Below, piece after piece: positions 43,567-44,055 of a stretch of 56,246 nt of DNA. Source of the stretch: Rubrobacter aplysinae (GTDB taxonomy: Bacteria > Actinomycetota > Rubrobacteria > Rubrobacterales > Rubrobacteraceae); assembly GCF_001029505.1 (NCBI RefSeq), contig NZ_LEKH01000015.1:1-56246 (forward strand), in the 5' to 3' direction. Every line of letters begins with the position of its first letter. Within the stretch, counting starts at the first letter, position 1. The position numbers were made by a program, and so were the translations under genes. The notes beneath the pieces are model-generated. The model had not been told where the DNA came from. It saw only the letters and a program-made list of their open reading frames with translations, and made no database searches.

Positions 43567-43977
43567 CTACCGGCACTCCTCCGGGTACTGCTCGCAGTAC
43601 GGGGTATCGCCCGGGACCTTGCCGCGGTTGGCCGCCACCCAGTCGTAGACCTTCTCCTGCAGAGAAGGCATGCCGGGCAGCTCGTACAGCCGGTGCGGCA
43701 GCGGGATGCCGGTCGCCACCGCGACCGACATGTTTATGGCCTCCGCCCCCCGGTGGCGCTGCGGGGGATTGCCCGGCTCGCCGGGGACGTAGCTCCAGGC
43801 GGCCGCCTTACAGTCCTCCTCGGAGAGCCCGGCCTCCTCCGGGACGCCGCTCTTCTGATACGGGACCACCGTCACGCGGTGGTTGCGGTCCAGCGCCCCG
43901 ACGAGGCGCGCGCACCGCGTTCAAAAGTGTCAGCCGCCGTCGAATATCAGTACCAGATGCTCGGGTAACGCCGCCAT
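43567..43977 (-). CDS. DCC-family (DUF393) thiol-disulfide oxidoreductase with two in-frame TGA codons; candidate selenoprotein
   Basis: From ATG 43977 (AGGAGG 5 nt upstream) the minus strand reads LVLIFDGG, TGA, HF, TGA, TRCARLVGALDRNHRVTVVP and on to 43567: 136 codons counting both TGAs. The family motif is DxxCxxC. Asp13 is present and codons 16 (43932-43930) and 19 (43923-43921), where the two active-site cysteines belong, are both TGA. All else is intact, including VVPYQ, HRGAEAIN, YELPGMPSLQEKVYDWVAANRG and a Cys-containing end. A SECIS-like hairpin follows. Read through with selenocysteine, the protein has a DxxUxxU site. Without recoding only 15 residues are made, and 102 codons remain open downstream from 43875. 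The family probably acts as a redox protein; its partner is unknown. menA lies 79 bp upstream on the same strand. Confidence 0.75.
43885..43918 (-). promoter_or_regulatory. Candidate bacterial SECIS hairpin after the two TGA codons
   Basis: In the RNA after the second UGA, GCGG (nt 3-6) pairs with CCGC (nt 33-36). After an internal loop GCGCCUC (nt 12-18) pairs with GGGGCGC (nt 22-28, one U-G pair). The apical loop is GUC. The loop starts 18 nt after the second UGA and 27 nt after the first. Bacterial SECIS elements are known to need an apical loop with G in the first two positions about 16-37 nt from the UGA, so both UGAs qualify. A further perfect 7-bp hairpin lies at 43865-43883 but is farther than usual. 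Folding was done by eye. Confidence 0.55.
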
Positions 43978-44055
43978 CCTGGCCTCCTCGTCTTATCGCC
44001 TAGCCGTCCACGGTACAGAGCCTAACAGCATCAGGCCGGAAGGTGTTACAGGGGT

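Follow-up and report, generated by a model that had tools for sequence, protein, structure and literature searches.

The DNA considered here (the window) is a 56,246-nt stretch of Rubrobacter aplysinae, and on its minus strand lies a reading frame for a DCC1-like thiol-disulfide oxidoreductase that carries two in-frame UGA codons and, directly behind them, two RNA hairpins. The features are the following:

43567..43977, minus strand: DCC1-like thiol-disulfide oxidoreductase gene, ATG to TAG, 136 aa, with two in-frame UGAs
43982..43989, minus strand: plausible ribosome-binding site upstream of the ATG, a purine-rich GAGGAGG region as read from the sequence
43930..43932, minus strand: UGA1, predicted Sec16, a UGA in 12/12 Rubrobacteraceae homologues
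43921..43923, minus strand: UGA2, predicted Sec19, UGA in 10/12 homologues and UGC (Cys) in 2/12
43885..43918, minus strand: hairpin 1, likely the SECIS, from RNAfold, covariation, the synonymous-codon scan and the codon table
43865..43883, minus strand: hairpin 2, a 7-bp stem (ACCACCG/CGGUGGU) with loop CGUGA, conserved across homologues

With UGA read as Sec, the product matches PF04134 over profile positions 1–112 of 113 (E 2.7e-12; 48.4 bits against a gathering cut-off of 27.8), and the two UGAs of the motif D-G-G-U-H-F-U fall on the two Cys positions of the PF04134 CxxC. Their distance of 9 nt thus follows from two Sec residues replacing a CxxC pair, as in UxxU selenoproteins. An AF2 model of the protein (pLDDT 88.9) has a strand at residues 8–12 and then, after U16, a helix at 17–29, which places the redox motif at the beginning of the first modeled helix. 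When this model was compared with known folds, GST and thioredoxin chains matched weakly (Foldseek E 0.01; Z ≤5.8), too weakly for a fold relative to be named from Foldseek/VIA; a PDB sequence search with the homologue alignment gave no match, and no NCBIfam model scored above its cut-off for the protein. The gene neighborhood gives no function, since the UbiA-type neighbor and the FAD oxidase adjoin the gene only in the same-genus genome.

The host genome holds a complete Sec machinery (tRNA-Sec, SelA, SelB and SelD), in which the genes for tRNA-Sec (anticodon UCA), selB and selA lie side by side on contig 5 (G000:C5). Beside tRNA-Ser(CGA), ARAGORN also lists a tRNA-like gene whose two-base anticodon is unclear (L002:550-642, G000:C6). 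Most members of the family have selA, with or without the DCC1-like Sec gene; among the carriers of that gene to which the selA search extended, it was found in all but two, whose genomes are incomplete (60% and 75%). The host selD (L018, G000:C22:28730-29647) likewise contains a UGA (..TKAG-U-ASKF..) with a SECIS-like stem behind it, and in 29/29 Rubrobacteraceae selD genes examined a UGA is accompanied by a typical conserved SECIS stem, whose 3-nt loop lies 20 nt downstream of the UGA and reads GGA or GGU in most.

The DCC1-like Sec gene was found in 12 of 39 genomes of a Rubrobacteraceae/order-level set, as 12 distinct UGA-bearing sequences; one carrier, Rubrobacter marinus, is in culture, and the predicted Sec peptide there would cover FDGA-U-HF-U-T. 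Their redox motif is UxxU in 10 and UxxC in 2, and all other intact relatives examined have CxxC; 11 further relatives were found among 396 genomes of the phylum, with a TGA in none. These proteins share with the DCC1-like family the PF04134 match, which extends to 11/11 aligned homologues, and the position of the redox motif, and what sets them apart from it is Sec in place of Cys. In a phylogenetic tree the Sec proteins form one clade (support 99/94) against 16 CxxC relatives, and UxxC looks derived from UxxU because the two UxxC sequences are nested inside that clade. Both UxxC genes (L027:1540-1619 and L029:1540-1619, from G026 and G032) have kept both hairpins and are natural single-UGA controls. 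The 12 clade genes are divergent, with about 60–70% identity to the gene studied, and are conserved both upstream and downstream of the UGAs. A relative from a Chloroflexales MAG (L045:2966-3358) has CxxC, but also in-frame TGA, TAG and TAA where its relatives have Arg/Trp, Lys and Gly, respectively; this copy looks decayed, or else the MAG is in error.

The preliminary description of this DNA had placed behind the UGAs a two-part stem with a GUC loop and a separate 7-bp stem with loop CGUGA, and had proposed RNAfold as a check. Both hairpins are indeed the favored fold: the MFE and centroid structures consist of exactly hairpin 1 (43918–43885) and hairpin 2, at −35.7 kcal/mol. Hairpin 1 (14 bp, −23.1 kcal/mol) is built of GCGGU, then C-G and G·U pairs, a bulged C, the inner GCGCCUC and the apical loop GUC at 43902–43900, which lies 27 nt after UGA1 and 18 nt after UGA2. 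These two distances had been given as those to the start of the hairpin; they are right for the apical loop but wrong for the stem base, which stands 2 nt after UGA2. The loop of hairpin 2 follows UGA2 by 44 nt and UGA1 by 53 nt.

The current model of the bacterial SECIS (bSECIS) describes an apical loop of 3–9 nt with an N-G-U pattern, an upper stem of 4–16 bp, an MFE of at most −7.5 kcal/mol and a distance from UGA to apical loop of 16–37 nt (PMC13188914). Hairpin 1 agrees with it for both UGAs in loop size, stem, MFE and spacing, and the earlier statements that both spacings lie within the bacterial range and that the apical loop begins with the G that the model requires are borne out. This apical G is found here and, in the best register, in 11/12 homologues, the failing one being L042 (AUC); the upper stem of L023 just misses the energy cut-off applied. 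The spacing of hairpin 2 lies outside the range. Overall, the element shares with the bSECIS model a stable stem-loop in the coding region just after a UGA and a small loop with an early G, but departs from it in that one element stands behind two UGAs, in the conserved bulge between its two helices, and in the second conserved hairpin directly behind. The selD SECIS offers a comparison within the same hosts: it too is a conserved stem close behind a UGA, but selD has one UGA, its stem is CUCCAGG-GGN-CCUGGAG, and no comparable second hairpin stands directly behind it.

Taken by itself, the single sequence does not lift these hairpins above chance. Dinucleotide shuffling gives a z of −1.09, with 31/200 shuffles equally stable, and 145 of the 1011 TGAs (14%) in the window, which has 66% G+C, are followed by a hairpin that agrees with similar rules; an Rfam scan of the window returned no match. 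Across homologues, the hairpins do exceed chance. All 12 genes can be aligned gap-free over the 80 nt that follow UGA1, and the influence of the protein was removed by reshuffling synonymous codons with the protein kept fixed. Hairpin 1 is then the strongest 36-nt window in the gene (mean z −2.69, with 12/12 genes below −1), and none of the 36-nt windows away from both hairpins falls below −1 in the whole-gene scan; among 21-nt windows, hairpin 2 gives the strongest signal of the gene (z −2.20, 12/12 genes). The same scan recovers the canonical SECIS in the 29 selD genes (z −2.8 to −3.6), which serves as a positive control, and detects no similarly strong hairpin immediately downstream of it in these genes. 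A weaker synonymous-structure signal appears ~30 codons after the selD UGA (mean z about −1.4; L071–L098).

Counting paired cells in the alignment gives 151/180 (83.9%) for hairpin 1 against a simulated mean of 109 and maximum of 126, and 83/84 (98.8%) for hairpin 2 against a simulated maximum of 70, an excess that is overstated because the simulations treat related sequences as independent, for which the scan along the gene corrects. Changes on both sides of a pair occur in 11 cells versus 3.6 in shuffles, and sliding the partners by 1–3 columns destroys the pairing. The clearest compensation links the Ser/Cys codon at nt 18–20 with the Leu codon at nt 39–41 (UGA1 = 0) in the combinations TCG+CTC, TGC+CTG and TCC+CTG, broken in one gene (L028): column pair 21–42 of hairpin 1 switches between GC and CG by way of Ser TCG/TCC, Cys TGC and Leu CTC/CTG. 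In L028 and L031 hairpin 1 apparently pairs in a shifted register. In hairpin 2, the codon at nt 63–65 has G as its last letter in 12/12 genes, although codons for Val, Ala and Thr in these genes more often end in C. Covariation of the stem in homologues had been named beforehand as a test; compensatory changes are present, and the UGA-bearing homologues keep the stem-loop. The CxxC relatives, as a negative control, form 3–10 of the 15 pairs of hairpin 1 and 0–6 of the 7 pairs of hairpin 2, mostly without a synonymous signal. A third, closing helix proposed by RNAalifold (UUCUG/CAGAA, columns 7–11 with 76–80) is not claimed, because its residues are fixed by the protein and compensation is absent.

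It is therefore very probable that the locus is the gene of a UxxU DCC1-like selenoprotein and that hairpin 1 is a bacterial SECIS serving both UGAs. The earlier reading of hairpin 1 as a SECIS thus stands, since the UGAs occupy the Cys positions of CxxC, the Sec machinery is complete, the stem-loop is kept in UxxU and UxxC homologues, and the CxxC relatives are without the structure. One SECIS for two closely spaced UGAs had been called unusual, and it is uncommon, but it has precedent in bacterial UxxU families: a Prx-like thiol:disulfide oxidoreductase (PF00578), the metal-binding NF041115 and the FmdB family (PMC13188914), in addition to the Prx-like 2 UxxU protein (PMC2398784). The less expected part is hairpin 2, which the preliminary description mentioned only in passing and which is itself conserved.

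Several other explanations can be envisioned. The hairpins might be by-products of encoding a conserved peptide in G+C-rich DNA, for which the unremarkable single-sequence z and the 14% of TGAs with such a hairpin could be cited; however, codon shuffling with the protein fixed leaves excess structure at both hairpins in 12/12 genes and far less elsewhere in the gene, and most CxxC relatives show no comparable signal, so that we regard this as very improbable. The same holds for decoding of the UGAs by a near-cognate or suppressor tRNA (Trp or Cys), with hairpins that merely stimulate read-through. Stem-loops can stimulate read-through, but the host has the entire Sec machinery, UGA substitutes redox Cys positions only, and the host's own selD likewise carries an in-frame UGA with a SECIS-like stem behind it; this reading was rejected. 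Less credible still is that the gene has decayed and the UGAs are nonsense mutations. A mechanical ORF call in the standard code does yield a product of 102 aa, from a GTG at 43875 inside hairpin 2, but that ORF is without the active site and below the Pfam cut-off, the two UGAs coincide with catalytic Cys positions and are common to a clade of 12 divergent genes, and the sequence on either side of them is conserved throughout that clade, which led to the rejection of this explanation as well.

The alternative that comes closest keeps Sec insertion but divides the work between two SECIS elements, hairpin 1 for one UGA and hairpin 2 for the other. In its favor, conservation is as strict in hairpin 2 as in hairpin 1, the loop CGUGA of hairpin 2 conforms to the N-G-U pattern of the bSECIS model (PMC13188914), and in selD, which has a single UGA, the SECIS is not directly followed by another hairpin of this sort. 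Yet with 44 and 53 nt between its loop and the UGAs, hairpin 2 exceeds the 16–37 nt of the model (PMC13188914), and both single-UGA UxxC homologues retain both hairpins. Hairpin 2 is therefore not simply the element of UGA2, being too distant for a normal SECIS and kept by UxxC genes, and we give this arrangement only an outside chance.

For a single SECIS serving both UGAs, the UxxC homologues are informative: they have retained UGA1 together with hairpin 1, so that a spacing of 27 nt is apparently enough by itself. The 18 nt of UGA2 differ little from the 20 nt seen in selD, and one element therefore probably serves both codons. Hairpin 1 would bind SelB-GTP-Sec-tRNA(Sec), and Sec would be delivered at UGA1, from which the loop is 27 nt distant, and then, after a further three codons, at UGA2, where this distance is 18 nt. 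The ribosome covers roughly 12 nt downstream, and in E. coli the part required by SelB is the inner stem-loop. While UGA1 occupies the A site, hairpin 1 would still lie entirely outside the ribosome; once UGA2 has arrived there, the outer helix would be drawn in and melted to about the bulge, and the inner stem-loop would remain. Hairpin 2 would stay folded behind hairpin 1 and probably aids recoding by stacking, by pausing or by keeping the upstream fold in register, an auxiliary role that is our best guess, held with low confidence. It is possible but doubtful that hairpin 2 is a new kind of auxiliary element, by which a single SECIS can serve both UGAs efficiently while the bulged hairpin 1 unfolds in two stages between UGA1 and UGA2.

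In the replacement of a CxxC pair by two Sec residues the protein resembles the known UxxU selenoproteins, but these belong to other families (PF00578, NF041115 and FmdB), not PF04134. Neither PF04134 nor COG3011 appears in the text of a 2022 review or of a 2026 review (PMC13188914), and a literature search of incomplete coverage found no report of a DCC1-like selenoprotein. We thus rate it as a selenoprotein family undescribed within the literature and NCBIfam searched, with a known type of signal and one unexplained conserved hairpin. The known bacterial selenoproteins would thereby gain one more family, and the protein is one that standard gene callers will truncate or miss. The gene would also offer a compact natural system for a poorly studied question, namely how one SECIS serves two UGAs 9 nt apart with termination at neither, for which nature supplies controls in the UxxC variants that carry the same hairpins. 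The equal conservation of a second hairpin suggests that signals for recoding in bacteria can reach past the single stem-loop of current models.
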